Assembly (NCBI RefSeq): GCF_010183535.1
Contig: NC_071333.1
Location: 10,104,587-10,168,586, forward strand
Source of the DNA: Caenorhabditis remanei
Taxonomy: Eukaryota > Nematoda > Chromadorea > Rhabditida > Rhabditidae
DNA: 64,000 nt
Direction of reading: 5' to 3'
Positions 16,585 through 54,044 of this stretch are shown in pieces (position 1 is the stretch's first letter; the number at the start of each line of letters is the position of its first letter). The position numbers were made by a program, and so were the translations under genes. The notes beneath the pieces are model-generated. The model worked only from the letters and a program-made list of their open reading frames with translations, had not been told where the DNA came from and did no database searches.

Positions 16585-19500
16585 TCAAGTTTGTTTTTGA
16601 CTGCACTCCGCTGGAGCTTCCTCCATCTTTATTTGACCCTGAAATATAATACTTTGGTTATTTTTTTCCCTTTTAATTGGCTCTATTCACAACTTACTTT
16701 ATTCTCTTTCTCGTATTCTTCATGTGCTAGTTGAATGGCATCCGTGACGTCGATAGTGGAACAGAGGGTAGCAATAAGTGACTCTTTGTGCATTTGTCTT
16801 TCTCCTTCGGCTACATAGCTCGCTTTGAGCAGTTCCGGTGCAGTTTTTTCATCTAATTCGGCATTTGACTGCAGTTGGTCTCTCCATTCAATCATTGTAT
16901 CACGATACTTGTACAATAGATTCTAAAAGATCAATGATTAGTTTGAGTAGAAAAGACAAAGATCAGAACGTACATGAATTTTGTCCACATGTCTTTCAGC
17001 GTCAACAAAGAAGTGCTCTCCTGGTTCTTCTGCGGTCTCATGAGTTGCACGGTTACGTTGTCGTTCAATAGCGTTCAACCTGAAATTGAAAACGAATTCA
17101 TAATTATAAAGAACAGTTTTACACGTACCAATCATTTGCTTCGACTCCTCCTGGTGCTTCGAATTCAACTTGAGAAGTCTCACAAGCAATAGTGATGATG
17201 TTCTTGTTATCAACAGTGACTGATTTAATATCTGACAACAATATAGTCCCCTTTGGTGCACATTGAACATCCTTCTGCCAGATAAGATTGCTATCAGTCA
17301 GTTGGACATAACGCTTCTTGTAGTGCAGTACTTTTTTCCAGGCCAAACGGCTTCGGTCAACTTGTTGGAGGTTTCCGAACTGTAAGAGAAATATTTATGT
17401 TAATTCTGGAGAATACGGTAAATACCTTAAAAACTGTGCATTTCGGTGGTTCAGTACGATCTCCAACCAAAGAAATGTTGTCAAGGAAGGTAGCCATAAG
17501 AAGTTTGTGTTGTTCACTTGTCACTGTTTCAAACACTCCATTCAGCCAGATTTCCTGAATTTATACCATATTTAACCGTTTCACAGTAGCCATGTACTAC
17601 CTTTGAAGACAATGGTCCCTCGCTAACACTACAGTTCGACAATCTTTGAAGAAGTTTTGAGAGCAACAAAAGAGTTCTGGACACACGGAGATCTGGTTGG
17701 TCCTTTCGGATCTCAAAAGCTTTTGGATTTAGAATTGCGGCGGCAAAGAAACGCATTATGACAAATGATGAGACGGCAAGACGTTGAACACCTGGACGGA
17801 CTGGAAGATAAATCATTATTACACTGCTGTGACTGACCAGTTGACTTACCACTATGAGTTCCAACAACATTTCTCAAGTCATATAGCAGTTGTTTGATAA
17901 GATGTGGACAGTCAGAAGAGCTAGTTGTGACACGTTCAAACAACATTTGGAAGTAGACCAACAAATTGTTTCTGTTCTTCTCCAAGGATGCTCCAACAAC
18001 GACTCTAGCTGGGTCAACTTCGCAATTCTTACGCTCCTTGTAGATCTAAAACAGAAATTTTTGTGTCAATAGTATGAATAAAACCACATACCTTATCGAC
18101 AACTGGTTTCAATGTAGTGATCAAATACATTTTACCGAATGTAGTCAAGATCTCGAACAACATCTTTCCAGAAAGAGATTGTCCACGGAACAATGTATTC
18201 TCATCCCTGTTACAAACCACAGTTACGTCTTTACTAATTGAACAATGACTCACTGGCACTTTAAGATACTATTGACGTAGAGAGAGCTGAGAACTGGACG
18301 AATACGATCCGTTTGTGCCATGAGTTCAACCAAAGAACGGGATACTGGTCCGAGTTCAACCTTCGGAAGAGCTTCAATGACAGCAACAAGTGATGCCGTG
18401 AGTGGTTGAACATCTCCAGCCGAGAAGAGGAGATCGAGAAGTGGTCTGAAAATGGAATTGAGTAATTTGGATACATTTGTTCATATCTTTGAAGGTTATA
18501 GAAATAAACTCACTTGTACACTTGCATGCGTAGAATATGATCAATTTGATAGGTGGTTCTTAAAGTGACTTCTCCAATATCTCCACCTTCTTCACCACTA
18601 TCACCTTCCTCATTAGTTTTCGCACGCAAGTAGAACCACTTAGCTGGTCCAGACTTCCAGTTCTCGTCCACGTCAACTCGAACTTGACCGTGAAAAACTG
18701 AATTGATGCCCTTTAGGAGATCCTGCCAGAGAGTCAATTTTAACGAGAGCATTCCTTCAGCACATGGCATTTCTAACCATTCCTTGCTTCGCTTTTCGTC
18801 AGCGTCGATGGACAGCTTGCCCACTTCCTAAAAGAAGAGAGTTTTTTTCCCAGAAAAAAGAGGAGCCTATTCAAAGCACATGAAAAAGGAGAAAAAGAAA
18901 AAGTACATACGCTGGAATTGTTGATTATGGACACGAGTAGGAGTAGAGATTGATTCTCTTTGAGTTTCAATCCACCGTAGTCGACGACTCTGCAAGACAT
19001 AAACCATTGTTTGAGGAGATAACAAACCACAGAGATGAGTGTTGCAAAGAATAAGCCAAAAGTACAAAAATTACAAGCTCCCACACAGAAATAGCTGTAG
19101 CCTAGACAATAATCGTTTTTCTCAGAAAACAAGCATAAGAATGTGTAAGAAACATCTTGTATACAGCATCAATGTTTTGTTGTACTCCAATTTCTATTCG
19201 CACATTGCTTACCCAACGGCTTTGTGCAAAGCAAAACGGATTGTTTACAAAATGACGTTGACGGAACGTTCTTTTTTTTAGGCTTTGGCAGCGTTACAGA
19301 AGTGTCTAATTGTAAAGGATGAATATAAGATTCTACTAATTTGCGGAGTCTTTTGTTCATTAGAACTCGATCAAGGAACAAAAAGAAGGGACAAAATGGA
19401 AAAAGAAAAAAGAGTGAGATGTTCCCACTTCAGACAGCGGAAGTGGTGGAAACTAAGTTGAGTTGATCATATTTAGTGAGTCAGGCGCACAAAGAAAGAA

Positions 19501-47884: not shown

Positions 47885-49560
47885 ATGGATGAGCCGGTCA
47901 TTGATACGTCAACTCCAGAAACGCTGGAAAGAGATTTTATGGCCTGGCTGAATGTGAGTGGTTATTCCATTTCTAGATTGAATGAGTTTCTATATCTGTG
48001 ATTGTTTTCAGAGTGATCCGACAAATACCCCAATCCGAAAAGCTGTGTTTCACGGTTTGGATTCAATTGCTCCAGCATTGATAAACCAGTTCACGGATGC
48101 ATTCGAAGTAAGAGAACTATGAATATTAGGGAGATCTCACACAATCAGCATATAGGGCGCGGTTACCATAAAAATTGTATTTGAGGTGCCCCTTTATTTG
48201 AAGTGCCCCTCTAATAGTGGTGCCCTCTGATGGACCCTTTGAACAATAGAGTTGCATGCACCTCAAATACAGTTTTTACGGTATTTTCCATTTCTATTTT
48301 CCAGGTTGGCATGTACAATCCATACTACTATCCAGACACATCGGATAGTGGGTCACCTTCTTCCTTATCCTGTTCATCCCTAGATTATGATGTGCCACCC
48401 CCACCACAATATGAAAAAGATGTGGCCCGCAGTTCAGGTTAGTCGGATTTCAAAGGTCAAAAATGTTATTAGAAATGGATTTGCATAAGCGAGAGTACTG
48501 ATTCTTCCTCATATCTCCCTACCACTAATTACTTTCCATTGTGATACAGATCACTGTCTAGACCTGTCTATTACAGTATATTCTTTTTATAAACCAAAAA
48601 AACTGTTGTTAAGTGCCGACTGTTATAGAAAGCAGTAAATCTTCACACTCATCAGACTTTGTCCTAACTACAGAAGCGGTGACATCAATCAAAATAGAAA
48701 AAAGATAGACGAGTTGTTCACAACAGAATTCAAGTGTTTCATTTATTGCCCTTCACTACCGTTTTTTTACATGCACATTGAAAAGGAAAGACAAGGAGAT
48801 CCAACACTGATATAAATATATCGTCTATCACTATGACATACCGCTGACGGGATTTCTCTTTTATCTGTCTGTCTAGCTATATGTGATTGTCTGATTTGGG
48901 AGATTTGGAAGAATCGAATTGAAACGTGATTAATTTATATGTATTTGATTGTTTTCTAGGACGAAATCAACTGGGAAGGACGTATAGCCCTGGATTGCCG
49001 TTGTCGATGTGTGAACGGGAGGAGATCGTGAAGTTATTTCAAGTTAGACCACCAATTTTCTCGTTTCTTCATAGTAGTAAACTGGTTTTCAGGGCGGTTG
49101 GAAGATCTGCGACATTTCGAAACGTCTTTGTGTCACCCACAGTTGTGTGAGCAAAATTCTCAACCGGTGAGTCACAATCAAAATCTATTTTTGTTCTATC
49201 ACAATGATGTATTTCAGATATCGCCAAACAGGATCAGTAAAACCGAAAGATGCCAAAGAAGGACGGACGGAATCTCCTTTAGTGTTAGCTGTAAGAGATT
49301 ATCGGTAGCAATCCAAAAAGATTTAACAAAAGTTTTTGAGCTGTTTTGATTCAGATCACGACTCGGAATGTGTCGACAAAGTGAAATTCGTGAGCAGCTG
49401 ATAAGAGATGGCATTTGCACTCGGGACAATGCGCCATCAAGGAGTAGTATAAATCAGTATGTTACTCCTAATTGAATTCTTGAAACATCAAAGTGATTTC
49501 AGCATTCTACGGACAAAACTGGATATTAAGCGACGGAAGAAAAGTCTTGCCGACGATTAA
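47885..49560 (+). CDS. Paired-domain (PAX) transcription factor lacking a homeodomain
   Basis: Eight exons (47885-47953, 48012-48107, 48305-48437, 48960-49042, 49093-49166, 49218-49304, 49355-49456, 49503-49560) give 233 residues. Residues 1-99 are unique, with a Tyr/Pro and Ser-rich part (MYNPYYYPDTSDSGSPSS). The paired domain covers about 100-222. The PAI half begins GRNQLGRTYSPGLPLS and holds CDISKRLCVTHSCVSKILNR. The RED half is RLGMCRQSEIREQLIRDGI, then APSRSSINHILRTKLD. The protein ends 11 residues later (KRRKKSLADD), so there is no octapeptide or homeodomain. It is a DNA-binding nuclear factor of the paired-only type, like nematode pax/npax genes; I do not assign which one. Exon 6 has a second, stronger-looking donor at 49291 that would truncate the RED half. 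Confidence 0.9.
48164..48283. repeat. Short inverted repeat in paired-gene intron 2
   Basis: TACCATAAAAATTGTATTTG..GGTGC at the left pairs with GCACCTCAAATACAGTTTTTACGGTA at the right. Between them are two near-copies of a (G)GTGCCCCT motif. This looks like a small MITE-type insertion. Confidence 0.7.
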
Positions 49561-49848
49561 TTAAACACTTCCAAAGTCAAATGCCAACCGATGCGGCTCA
49601 ATTACTAGTTAAATTCTATTCTTAATCCTCAATGCCCAAACTTTCCGCCTTTTATTAAAAATTAATCTCTATTACACCTAATTGTTTTAGATCTCGTGGT
49701 CATCATCCTGTAATTAGCTGGTATAATTTTTCCCACACAAACCGGCGACACTTTCCTCATTTATTTCCGTCTGTAGTCTGAGCATCTCTCTGTTTTTCTC
49801 ACTTTTTCATTTAAACTTAACCAGTTCATAATTTGAAGAGTTATGTTT

Positions 49849-49854: not shown

Positions 49855-49960
49855 TCGTTCGTGTAGATCTCTCAATATTTCAAATGTTTTATAACCTATT
49901 CTCTGTAAGACTCGAGCAACGTGGGTACTAGGGATTTATTTTTGTATTAAAATGTATACC

Positions 49961-51033
49961 AGGCCATCAGTGACTCATACCATAATTTTTGGGCCCCGGC
50001 TCCGGGCTACGGTAGTACGGTAGGTGCTCAAAGGTCAAAAAATTTATTTTTTTGTTTTTCATTTTTATAAGCTGATTTTTTTTCAACAAAATATGCACAA
50101 TTAGTATATACTTTTCCCAAATTATCAGACTTGAACAACTTTTTTTCACCGAGTTGACACCAAAATACCCAAAATTTTGAGACATTTTGACAGAAAATCA
50201 AAATTTTCGATCCTTATTCAAAAAAACCCCACGACAAAACTTTTGTTTTTCAAATAAGAATTGCAAATTCTTTGATTTAAAAATATATTCGTTCAAAACA
50301 ACCTCTGAGCAGAAACCCAAAAGTGCGTCTGACTGAATGACAAAAAAATTTTTTAGACGAAAACCAAAAATTCTTTATTGATATCGTAAGATCGTGTTAT
50401 ACTGAACATTTTTTGTACTGACACTTTTTTACCAAACTAAGTCCATCTATGAGAAAATCATGTTCAAGATGAAACCAACGCAAAATTTCTCGTTTCGCAC
50501 TGCGCATCAAAAGTGTTGTTTTCATCTTGAACATGATTTTCTCATAGATGGACTTAGTTTGGTAAAAATGTGTCAGTATAAAAAATGTTCAATATAACAC
50601 AATCTTACGATATCAATAAAGAATTTTTGATTTTCGTCTAAAAAATTTTTTTGTCATTCAGTCAGACGCACTTTTGGGTTTCTGCTCAGAGGTTGTTTTG
50701 AACGAATATATTTTTAAATCAAAGAATTTGGAATTTTTATTTGAAAAACAAAAATTTTGTCGTGGGGTTTTTTTGAATAAGGATCGAAAATTTCGATTTT
50801 CTGTCAAAATGTCTCAAAATTTTGGGTATTTTGGTGTGAACTCGGTGAAAAAAAGTTGTTCAAGTCTGATAATTTGGGAAAAGTATATACTAATTGTGCA
50901 TATTTTGTTGGAAAAAAATCAGCTTTTAAAAATGAAAAACAAAAAAATAAATTTTTTGACCTTTGAGCACCTACCGTACTACCGTAACTCAGAGCCCGGG
51001 CCCAAAAATTATGGTATGGGTCACTGATGGCCT
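49961..51033. repeat. Near-perfect 1.07-kb palindromic element with 8-bp flanking repeat
   Basis: The left end AGGCCATCAGTGACTCATACC is the complement of the right end GGTATGGGTCACTGATGGCCT with one mismatch. The arms then mirror each other base for base with few differences, down to a spacer of about 45 bases near 50475-50518. AATGTATA occurs just outside both ends (49951-49958 and 51034-51041), an 8-bp target-site duplication of hAT type. Both arms carry the same outward-reading frame (SQNFGYFGVNSVKKSCSS) simply because they are copies. No transposase is present, so this is a non-autonomous palindromic transposon. Confidence 0.93.
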
Positions 51034-51655
51034 AATGTATATGCACATGCAATTTTTAATCTGTAACATCAATACAGGCCGTACGCCCCTACCTACTGTG
51101 ACCATGTTCGACTCTTACAGAGAATAGGTTTTATAGGACAGGTGTAATATTCTTCGGGATGTGACTTTGCTAGAACTGTTGTTTCATGCTTCAAACACAA
51201 TTCGAAGACTAACTTTAAAATGTCTGAACGAATTTCACATAATTTTTGTACGTTTTCCATACCAAAATGTCTTTCATTTTGTAAAAAACCCAAAATGGTG
51301 ACCGCATGAATCATGAAACTTTGATTGAATAGAGAAAACAAAAACAAACTGCAACAATATTTGACTTTTGTCTTCATTCATAAACTTCACTTTTCTTTTG
51401 TTCTCATGCTGAATTTGACCAACAACTAATAGTGATCTGTTCACAATTTGGAACGAGTTAGTCATGCATTGTTTTGTTTTCTAACAGAAGCTAAACAGAA
51501 CAATATGAGGGGTTTTTATTTTCCATTTATTAAGAACTTCCCAAACTTTTTTATCCAGCTTAACTATAGCATCACTTCTATCTCTCTTTTTTCCATAGTT
51601 AGTTCTCGCCCAAAAAAATATGAACACGCTGCCTGTGATATGAGAGAAAATGTTT

Positions 51656-52625
51656 GAGACGCAGACAGCTAGAAACTATGCGTGTTCGAAAGTGAAAGTG
51701 TTTCAGTTGGTCATATTTCGCAACATGAAAATTGAAAAGGAAGAAGATGAACACTTCGTGCACTCAGAAAGAATATAAGACGCAGTTTGACACAAACTTT
51801 GAGAATTTGAAAGTGAAAAATTTCAACATGATATAACTTCACAGTACTTTGATAATGATACAGTTAAGAAAACAGATATTGATATAACTAAAGAAATATT
51901 TCGTTTGAGGCACAGGAAATCAGAAACTATTCAAGTTGAAAAGTGAAAGTGTGTAGGTAGATGTTTCCTGCAAAATTTGGAAAATGAAACAGTCATGAAA
52001 AAGAATTGCGGTTGAACGCAGTTTTGGGTACGAGACACAGCGTGCTAGAAACTGTTCGAGTCGGAAAGTAAAAGTTGCTGAGATGATAACAAAACGGATA
52101 CCAATAAATTAAGAAAACAAAACTAGAGAGAGCCACTAAGATTCATTTATTTGAAAGAAGCAGAGAATCAGAAACTATTCGTACTGGAAAGTAAGAATTG
52201 GAAAGTACACTATTACTGACACTGAAAACCTGGCCCTGTTCACCAAATATCTCTTTGAGACGCAGCGATCTAGAAACTATCCAAGTTTGAAAGTGAAAGT
52301 TACTGATATGATAACAGATGGGCTACAAGTTAACAGAGAAAACAAAATTGGAGAGAGCTACAGAGATACATTTACCTGTAAGATGCCGACAATTAGAAAC
52401 TGTTCGTGTTAGAAAGTGAAAGTTAGAAAAATAAAACTACAACCAAAATAACACCTTTGACGCAATTAACAAAATATTCGAGACGCAGGAATTTAGAAAC
52501 TATCAAAGTTTGAAAGTGAAAGTTACCGATTAGTAAACATTTTGCAGTACATCACCGAGATAAATAATATCTATCTCTCAGACGCAGCATGTTAGATACT
52601 GTTCAAGTTTGAAAGTGAAAGTTGC
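51656..52625. repeat. Dispersed array of about nine units with BLMP-1/PRDM1-like motif
   Basis: Units start near 51656, 51776, 51902, 52031, 52157, 52257, 52380, 52480 and 52580. The shared core is GAGACGCAG, six variable bases, TAGAAACTATTCAAGTT, then GAAAGTGAAAGTT; unit 5 and the second unit are more degenerate. Spacing is 100-129 bases, and the DNA between units is unrelated. The terminal part matches the known PRDM1/BLMP-1 binding consensus (AGTGAAAGT). The array ends about 460 bases before the collagen start codon, in the same orientation throughout. Confidence 0.85.
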
Positions 52626-53085
52626 AAGTTATAATGGTTTTTCATTATTCCAAAGTGAAAATCGGTACAGTAATCTTTGCTTTCAAGTACCTACTTGTGC
52701 TCAAAATGAAAAACTACTATCACTATTTTGCGACACCTGTTCTTGCAATTTTCTGATACCGGACTATTTGTAGATTGGAAACAATGAATCTTTTATATTA
52801 CCAATTGAACACTACTACTACTCCAATTCACACAGACCTTCGGAATTTCTCATTATCTCCGTGATCACCACGGGAGGAGTACAATCCATTTACCCGTATG
52901 AAAGCGAAATCTTGCGGAGATACTGAGGATAGATAATCCAGGTCACTCCTTTGTTATCTAATTAGGTCACATTCACTGATATATATGTGTACAATAAGAA
53001 AGTTTTTCTTCATTTTCTTTTGTACTATCGACTAGTTTCTTTTTTCTTCTTCTTGGTTTTCCACTTTTCAATTGTTTTTACAGAT

Positions 53086-54044
53086 ATGGAGCAGAAATGC
53101 GCCCCACGGCGCTCTCTCCGGCTGCTTGCCATTGCTTCGGCAACTTTGGCTATCGTTTCTATGCTAGCTACAGTAATAATTGTTCCTCTTGTGTACAATC
53201 ATGTGCAGCATCTTCAGTCGGTTATGAACAGTGAAGTGGATTTTTGCAAGGTAAGCAAATTTCCATTTAGCGCAGTAAAATAACGAGCTAAATATTTCAG
53301 ACCAGATCTCGTGACATGTGGCGTGAGATGGTTACCGTTCAATCTGTTTCTGGGGGAATTCCAGCTCGTACCGCCCGTCGTACCCGTCGTGACAATTACG
53401 GAGCACAACCAATTGCTGCCAATCCACCATCATCTGCTGCGGGATCTTGCTGTACCTGCCAAGTCGGTCCACCAGGACCACCAGGACCACCAGGAAGAGA
53501 CGGTCGGCCAGGAGCACCAGGACGTCCAGGAAATCCAGGACCACCAGGAAGAGACGGAGCACTTCTCCCAGGACCACCACCAAAGCCACCATGTCAAAAG
53601 TGTCCACCAGGACCACCAGGACCAGCCGGACCTCCCGGACCAAAAGGTCTTCCAGGACCACAAGGAGATGCTGGTACAGCTGGACAAGATGGTGTTCCAG
53701 GACTTCCAGGACCACCAGGACCATCCGGACCACAAGGAGCGCCAGGAGTTCCAGGAGAGAAGGGACCAACTGGAGAGCCAGGAAAGGTTATCAACGGAGC
53801 TCCACCAGGCCCACCAGGACCACCAGGACCACCAGGACCTCAAGGGCCACCAGGACCACCAGGAAAGGATGGACAACCAGGAAAGGCCGGGCCACCAGGA
53901 CTTCCAGGAGATCCAGGAGAGAAGGGATCCGACGGACTTCCAGGACCACACGGAGGAACTGGACCACGTGGACCACCAGGACAACCAGGATCATGCGATC
54001 ATTGTCCACCGCCTAGAACCGGACCAGGATATGCCAGACGTTGA
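53086..54044 (+). CDS. Cuticle collagen
   Basis: Two exons (53086-53250, 53301-54044) give 302 residues. The N-terminus has a basic patch and a hydrophobic segment ([20 protein letters not shown], about residues 14-36), as in the nematode cuticle collagen family with its signal-anchor. A subtilisin-type cleavage cluster (RTARRTRR) precedes the collagen part. Gly-X-Y blocks are split by short breaks and bordered by paired cysteines (CCTCQVG, CQKCPPG, CDHCPPP) that form interchain bonds. The chain is assembled in hypodermal cells and secreted into the cuticle at molts. The ATG is two bases after a TTTACAG acceptor. The upstream repeat array suggests stage- or cycle-controlled expression. The member of the large col/dpy/sqt group is not identified. 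Confidence 0.95.

Follow-up and report, generated by a model that had tools for sequence, protein, structure and literature searches.

A cuticle-collagen gene of Caenorhabditis remanei is preceded by nine units of about 50 letters, all in a single orientation (51653-52625, + strand), as was detected by matrix search and alignment in the 64-kb stretch of DNA that was analysed (hereafter, the window). The locus raises the question of whether such a series of units acts as a control element of the neighbouring gene or is a product of duplication and drift, and of which sequences it was assembled from. The reading we favour, with about even confidence, is that the array represents a promoter-proximal composite EOR-1/BLMP-1 enhancer of the collagen starting at 53086, multiplied by local duplication.

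Structure of the array

The alignment of the nine units is gap-free across 50 columns, with 18 of the first 48 columns being invariant, and gives the consensus T.t.AGAcgCAG..a..tAGAAACT.T.c.agTT.GAAAGTgAAAgTt. The units start at positions 51653, 51774, 51904, 52029, 52152, 52254, 52377, 52477 and 52576, all on the + strand, i.e., at successive intervals of 121, 130, 125, 123, 102, 123, 100 and 99 bp, and the collagen ATG (53086) is located 462 bp past the end of the last unit. An earlier note on this DNA had described about nine units of the same orientation, spaced by 100-129 bp and ending about 460 bp before the ATG; all nine indeed align gaplessly on the + strand, the measured intervals (99-130 bp) agree with the claim to within one base, and the distance to the ATG is as described. 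The units and the candidate sites in them are the following (letters matched to the EOR-1 and BLMP-1 consensus are given in brackets):

51653..51702, +, unit 1: EOR-1-like 51656-51665 (GAGACGCAGA, 10/10); TAGAAACT 51670-51677; BLMP-1-like 51688-51699 (12/12)
51774..51823, +, unit 2, the most diverged: EOR-1-like 51777-51786 (8/10); BLMP-1-like 51809-51820 (10/12)
51904..51953, +, unit 3: EOR-1-like 51907-51916 (7/10); BLMP-1-like 51939-51950 (11/12)
52029..52078, +, unit 4: EOR-1-like 52032-52041 (8/10); BLMP-1-like 52064-52075 (11/12)
52152..52201, +, unit 5: EOR-1-like 52155-52164 (8/10); BLMP-1-like 52187-52198 (9/12)
52254..52303, +, unit 6: EOR-1-like 52257-52266 (9/10); BLMP-1-like 52289-52300 (12/12)
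52377..52426, +, unit 7: EOR-1-like 52380-52389 (7/10); BLMP-1-like 52412-52423 (12/12)
52477..52526, +, unit 8: EOR-1-like 52480-52489 (9/10); BLMP-1-like 52512-52523 (12/12)
52576..52625, +, unit 9: EOR-1-like 52579-52588 (8/10); BLMP-1-like 52611-52622 (12/12)
52652..52660, +, extra AAAGTGAAA core outside all units

The matrix built from the units scores them at 48-73, values that are high by construction, the matrix having been made from those same units, and no other place in the window scores above -0.8. The 3' string GAAAGTGAAAGT, with at most one mismatch, occurs eight times in the window, seven of them in the array, while 0.94 occurrences are expected and none of 100 shuffles reached eight. 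GACGCAG alone is not uncommon: it occurs six times in the window, five of these in the array, vs an expectation of 3.07, and 11 of 100 shuffled sequences contain six or more. Loose EOR-1 and BLMP-1 strings at an offset of 32 were found ten times on the + strand of the window, every time in the array, and not once on the - strand. The repeat finder lists eight of the units, unit 5 being missed. As to a tandem satellite or minisatellite, Tandem Repeats Finder at score 40 has no entry at 51653-52625. Helical phasing of the units received no support (P 0.15).

Some shorter words recur within the array. GAAAACA is present at window positions 51868, 52113 and 52338 (spacers 2, 4 and 6), that is 94, 84 and 84 bp past the starts of the respective units, and the array contains four GATAA; these words could be either residual homology or additional sites. 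In front of units 4 and 8, about 20 bp before their EOR-1 blocks, stand the extra words GAACGCAG and GACGCAA (window 52014-52021 and 52459-52465), which are perhaps remnants of additional half-units.

The collagen gene and its surroundings

The gene beside the array contains one 50-bp intron and ends with a stop at 54042-54044. Its domain matches (PF01484, 44.3 bits; PF01391, 84.2 bits), i.e., Col_cuticle_N and collagen repeats, agree with the cuticle collagen named in the earlier note. The features between the array and the end of the gene are:

52853..52985, no strand assigned, proximal promoter-like stretch: GATA-type words 52853, 52932 and 52954; GGTCA 52941 and 52965; TATATA 52980 (word matches only)
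53086..53250, +, collagen exon 1 with the Col_cuticle_N domain, its ATG two bases after TTTTTACAG
53301..54044, +, collagen exon 2 with Gly-X-Y repeats

Judging by its letters, TTTTTACAG may serve as a trans-splice acceptor, and the GATA, GGTCA and TATATA words between the array and the ATG would fit an epidermal collagen promoter. No close second copy of the collagen was found in the genome, where the best-scoring paralogues are 36-38% identical and shorter matches reach up to 48%. These best-scoring paralogues form a six-collagen cluster on C6, the contig of the window (C6:12929329-12971676, 12.93-12.97 Mb), and its fetched upstream regions (L033-L038) hold no comparable AAAGTGAAA array. Seven relatives were found, none of them labelled Caenorhabditis, with those of Ancylostoma, Aphelenchoides, Ditylenchus and Meloidogyne matching at 47-62% over the N-terminal part of the collagen.

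The window also contains a foldback element (49933-51061), composed of two 547-nt arms that are 94% complementary and separated by 35 nt, and for the left arm three further sites of C6 hold relatives of full length (98-100%), while less similar relatives are spread over several chromosomes. A PAX (paired box) gene is located at 48960-49290 (+; PF00292, 60.2 bits from joined exon pieces), and a RasGAP exon at 17532-17873 (-; PF00616, 44.9 bits).

Conserved blocks of the unit and their occurrence before other collagens

The 3' block had been equated in the earlier note with the PRDM1/BLMP-1 consensus, which we take to be GAAAGTGAAAGT. Compared with these letters, five of the nine units match at 12/12, two at 11/12, one at 10/12 and one at 9/12, so that the equation holds at 11/12 or better for seven candidate sites. 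BLMP-1 is reported as a regulator of several collagens (PMC9772317), the cuticle barrier is stated to require six collagens and BLMP-1 (PMC9015713), and oscillating accessible sites are described as enriched for BLMP-1, among other factors (PMC12673066). A literature search for BLMP-1 combined with TTTCACTTTC found no paper.

For comparison with other collagens, the best 80 of 149 collagen-domain matches by domain score were used: two of the 149 were dropped as lying on small contigs, upstream DNA was taken for 80 of the other 147 (L024-L103), and the region of the array itself was taken from the window; two pairs among the 80 regions have exactly identical last 300 bp. The 2.5 kb of the array contain eight AAAGTGAAA cores, and the other 80 regions at most two each. 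Before these 80 collagens the core is not enriched (0.237 per 2.5 kb vs 0.238 for the window without the array), nor is it concentrated near their starts (two within 450 bp, 3.4 expected). Among the 45 other places of the exact 13-mer GAAAGTGAAAGTT, a single one is found at most 3 kb upstream of the collagen nearest to it, and a second, by coordinates, precedes a neighbouring collagen by about 1.3 kb.

The 5' block GACGCAG, left unexplained at first reading, is by its letters part of the published EOR-1/PLZF consensus and can now be regarded as a predicted site. GAGACGCAGA is called fully identical to the EOR-1/PLZF consensus of C. elegans, its mutation led to loss of reporter expression in HSN neurons, and the abts-1b promoter is described as holding one full and six similar EOR-1 sites (PMC5962631); GAGACGCAGASA is likewise likened to EOR-1 in another paper (PMC10472662). 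That the reporter support is neuronal (HSN) counts against the reading we favour. In units 1-9 the consensus is matched at 10, 8, 7, 8, 8, 9, 7, 9 and 8 of ten letters, i.e., at 8/10 or better in seven of nine; matches of this quality number eight on the + strand of the array and 51 in the remaining window on both strands. The middle block TAGAAACT is conserved as well, without a nameable binder.

Within 450 bp of the 80 other collagens GACGCAG was found 13 times in 12 loci, while 4.5 would be expected from its 25 occurrences in 2.5 kb (P 0.00012). It ranks first among 210 permutations there, though narrowly (13, the next being 12, 12 and 12; mean 2.16), and only tenth of 210 over the whole 2.5 kb. 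Some GACGCAG of the collagen regions lie in repeats, including, by eye, one of the 13 within 450 bp (L094, in the dispersed-repeat family described below). GATAAG is likewise concentrated within 450 bp of the collagens in the 80 regions (42 of 134, 24.1 expected), and the clustering of the two words hints at an EOR-1/GATA promoter code.

Pairs of EOR-1 and BLMP-1 sites at most 80 bp apart number 13 in the 80 other regions and are spread over 12 offsets, and looser pairs at the offset of 32 amount to five in 405 kb of strand. Because the BLMP-1 core is not enriched, the pairs are few and their spacing is scattered, the array is a peculiarity of one gene among the collagens sampled.

The joined unit and the dispersed repeat

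The genome searched was an assembly of 130.47 Mb in 186 contigs, with the window on C6, and common words were skipped by the search; the whole DNA of the array found no match in it except itself. The 31-bp pattern of the middle and 3' blocks, with at most three mismatches, recovered seven units and no other place in the genome, and the corrected 5' pattern of 31 bp recovered seven units and three other places, these at three mismatches (control 0). Units 2 and 5 were missed by both patterns because of their 5-7 mismatches each. When the 10 bp between the blocks were left free, 57 places were obtained, seven in the array and 50 elsewhere (control 26); the six places with at most one mismatch are without exception units, the 50 elsewhere have 2-3 mismatches, and 16 of the latter can be sorted by eye into five groups of look-alike sequences. 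GACGCAGN5TAGAAACT with at most two mismatches occurs at no fewer than 574 places (control 320). The joined EOR-1/BLMP-1 unit thus occurs solely in the array at the thresholds used, and not at many unrelated loci, the outcome that the genome scan proposed in the earlier note had been meant to detect.

The three places of the 5' pattern that are not units all read GAGACGCAGAC.GTTAGACACTCT and are members of a dispersed repeat. Its 22-mer GACGCAGACAGYTAGACACTCT is present at 148 places of the genome with at most one mismatch (control 0), and exactly at 26 places on C1-C5 and C19, mostly on C4 and C5 and none on C6. Six fetched copies (L104-L109) read GAGACGCAGACAG(T/C)TAGACACTCT, followed some 6-7 bp later by TCTGCG, and four of the six terminate in the exact inverse TCTGCGTCTC, so that EOR-1-type sequence is found at both repeat ends. 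This dispersed repeat of about 40 bp, GAGACGCAGACAGYTAGACACTCT...TCTGCGTCTC, with EOR-1-type sequence inverted at its ends, could be a wide source of EOR-1 sites. Five loci (L017, L054, L081, L089 and L094) carry related GAGACGCAGAGAAG..., in several of them followed by CTTCTCTGCG, and appear to be variants of the same repeat family.

The 5' 22 bp of the unit, i.e., the EOR-1 block plus TAGAAACT, resemble the left half of the repeat: its first 22 bp agree with unit 1 at 21 positions and with the others at 18, 18, 17, 17, 17, 16, 15 and 14, whereas matches elsewhere in the window reach 15 at most. The remaining 23 bp of the unit (the BLMP-1 half) have 1-8 matches to the repeat copies. On this resemblance, common ancestry of the 5' half and the dispersed repeat is likely, though not proven, and the EOR-1 match may therefore be inherited rather than selected. 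The alternative of transposon fragments, mentioned in the earlier note, accordingly finds partial support, in the 5' 22 bp but not for the joined unit, which the genome searches found nowhere else.

Growth of the array and probable selection on its cores

Spacers 4 and 6 are identical at 55 of 75 positions, and among the 28 spacer pairs compared the pairs 2/3, 1/3 and 2/6 also have P below 0.015, their similarity being weak. The clear pair delimits a block duplication:

52029..52476, +, duplicated block: 52029-52253 containing units 4-5, and 52254-52476 containing units 6-7; spacers 4 and 6 are homologous

Since the spacers are partly homologous (4/6 clearly, three other pairs weakly), the array expanded by local duplication, and the description of the DNA between the units as unrelated has to be qualified.

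This mode of growth brings forward the most serious rival of the enhancer, a neutral array, in which a repeat fragment lying beside a BLMP-1-like stretch was locally duplicated and has been drifting, the copies adding no function; we lean against it as rather unlikely. The likeness of the 5' 22 bp to the dispersed repeat, the partial homology of the spacers and the lack of such an array in the 80 other collagen regions are all in line with neutral growth. Moreover, in the clear duplicate pair conservation of the cores (37/48 and 36/48) barely exceeds that of the spacer, and this near-equal divergence counts against selection on the cores. The distribution of changes along the unit speaks otherwise: minority letters per column have a variance of 3.33 vs a mean of 1.59 in neutral simulations run at a uniform rate on the tree of the nine units themselves, none of the 5000 simulations reaching the observed value, and invariant columns number 18 vs 11.5 in the simulations (P 0.025). 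A free 5-bp linker sits between conserved blocks of the unit. Units 6 and 8 retain 90% core identity with spacers that can scarcely be aligned, and it is the block unlike the repeat, GAAAGTGAAAGT, that is kept at 11/12 or better in seven units, both of which argue against drift alone. Selection on the unit cores is consequently likely, not proven. The earlier preference for selection over slippage stands in so far as the cores are unevenly conserved, and fails in so far as the array did arise by local duplication.

Proposed function and alternatives

In the composite enhancer that we favour, each unit would comprise an EOR-1/PLZF-type site (GAGACGCAG), the second block and a BLMP-1/PRDM1-type site at fixed spacing, the first two blocks having probably descended from, or being co-ancestral with, the dispersed repeat with EOR-1-type ends, and the BLMP-1 part having presumably been added to the repeat-like half at this locus. 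EOR-1 would recruit SWI/SNF and, together with BLMP-1, open chromatin in the larval epidermis; nine copies would make the opening surer and the output stronger at every molt, and the GATA and GGTCA words by the TATA-like box may determine tissue and phase. What we infer for this element comprises binding, opening of chromatin, expression that is epidermal and rhythmic, action on the collagen, and descent from the repeat. In C. elegans, EOR-1/GAGA, BLMP-1 and ELT-3 are the three most informative motifs for the change of accessibility from embryo to L3, and EOR-1 and SWI/SNF interact genetically (PMC5741055).

The same architecture might be an enhancer array read by other factors, e.g., by another C2H2/PRDM protein at GAAAGTGAAAGT or by one long zinc-finger protein reading most of the unit, which we judge quite unlikely. 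All blocks keep a fixed spacing in nine units, the conserved middle block lacks a nameable binder, and BLMP-1 cores show no excess upstream of the other collagens, as such a reading would have it; against it, each of the two outer blocks fits a named C. elegans factor with a motif tied to larval chromatin opening in the work cited above. Service to another gene, such as the PAX-domain gene with its last exon ending, by eye, near 49565, is very unlikely: enhancers can work at a distance and this gene is located about 2 kb upstream of the array, but the array lies 3' of it with the 1.1-kb foldback element intervening, and the collagen ATG is only 462 bp off. We take C6 to be probably the X chromosome, and rex sites, at which X-chromosome dosage compensation is recruited, have clustered motifs, with a species-special motif being conceivable. 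GACGCAG also has CGCAG in common with the C. elegans MEX sequence (PMC10076027). A rex site is nevertheless rejected as extremely unlikely, as the CAGGG core common to C. elegans MEX, MEX II and C. briggsae MEX is present in none of the nine units, and C6 does not have the joined unit scattered along it.

A cluster of small RNA genes, suggested in the earlier note and matched by the shared orientation of the units, has a practically negligible chance, there being no Rfam match in the window, no consensus structure, and fold z-scores of -0.60 to 1.61 in all nine units. A hairpin in the middle block was also dropped, as it is kept in some units only and RNAalifold predicts no pair. On the whole, the PRDM1/BLMP-1-like 3' block, the adjoining cuticle collagen and the unevenly kept cores of the first reading survive; its small RNAs do not, and its unrelated spacers do so only in part.

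Returning to the composite enhancer, a bolder version of its history is that the repeat with EOR-1-type ends gave half (EOR-1 plus TAGAAACT) of a new element, and that this element, once combined with a BLMP-1 site, was multiplied nine-fold to yield an adaptive enhancer serving a single conserved collagen; we offer this version tentatively, as a doubtful proposition. If true, a composite enhancer of pioneer factors would have been born from a repeat at this locus, and would offer a natural series of copy numbers. Should the enhancer reading hold, cooperation, spacing and copy number could be tested directly on the nine graded copies, and the birth of an enhancer would be linked to repeat DNA through the resemblance to the dispersed repeat.

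Comparison with known systems

We know of no natural locus in which EOR-1 and BLMP-1 motifs are locked together and repeated. The closest known arrangement of EOR-1 sites is that of the abts-1b promoter, which likewise holds multiple sites and has the same EOR-1 letters as unit 1, seven of the nine units matching at 8/10 or better; in the array, by contrast, each EOR-1-like copy stands at a fixed distance from TAGAAACT and a BLMP-1-like site. With target promoters of the BLMP-1/PRDM1 molting programme the array shares a PRDM1-type block before a cuticle collagen, but it repeats the site nine-fold in one orientation, whereas the 80 sampled collagens have 0-2 cores per 2.5 kb. As to the dispersed repeat, the left 22 bp are alike (21/22 in unit 1, 14-18 in the others) and the right half is unlike. 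Homotypic clusters of transcription-factor sites that arose through duplication are a general known kind of element, and the array similarly gathers many similar sites in about 1 kb with partly homologous spacers; it differs from such clusters in that what is repeated in it is a composite of rigid layout and half repeat-like.
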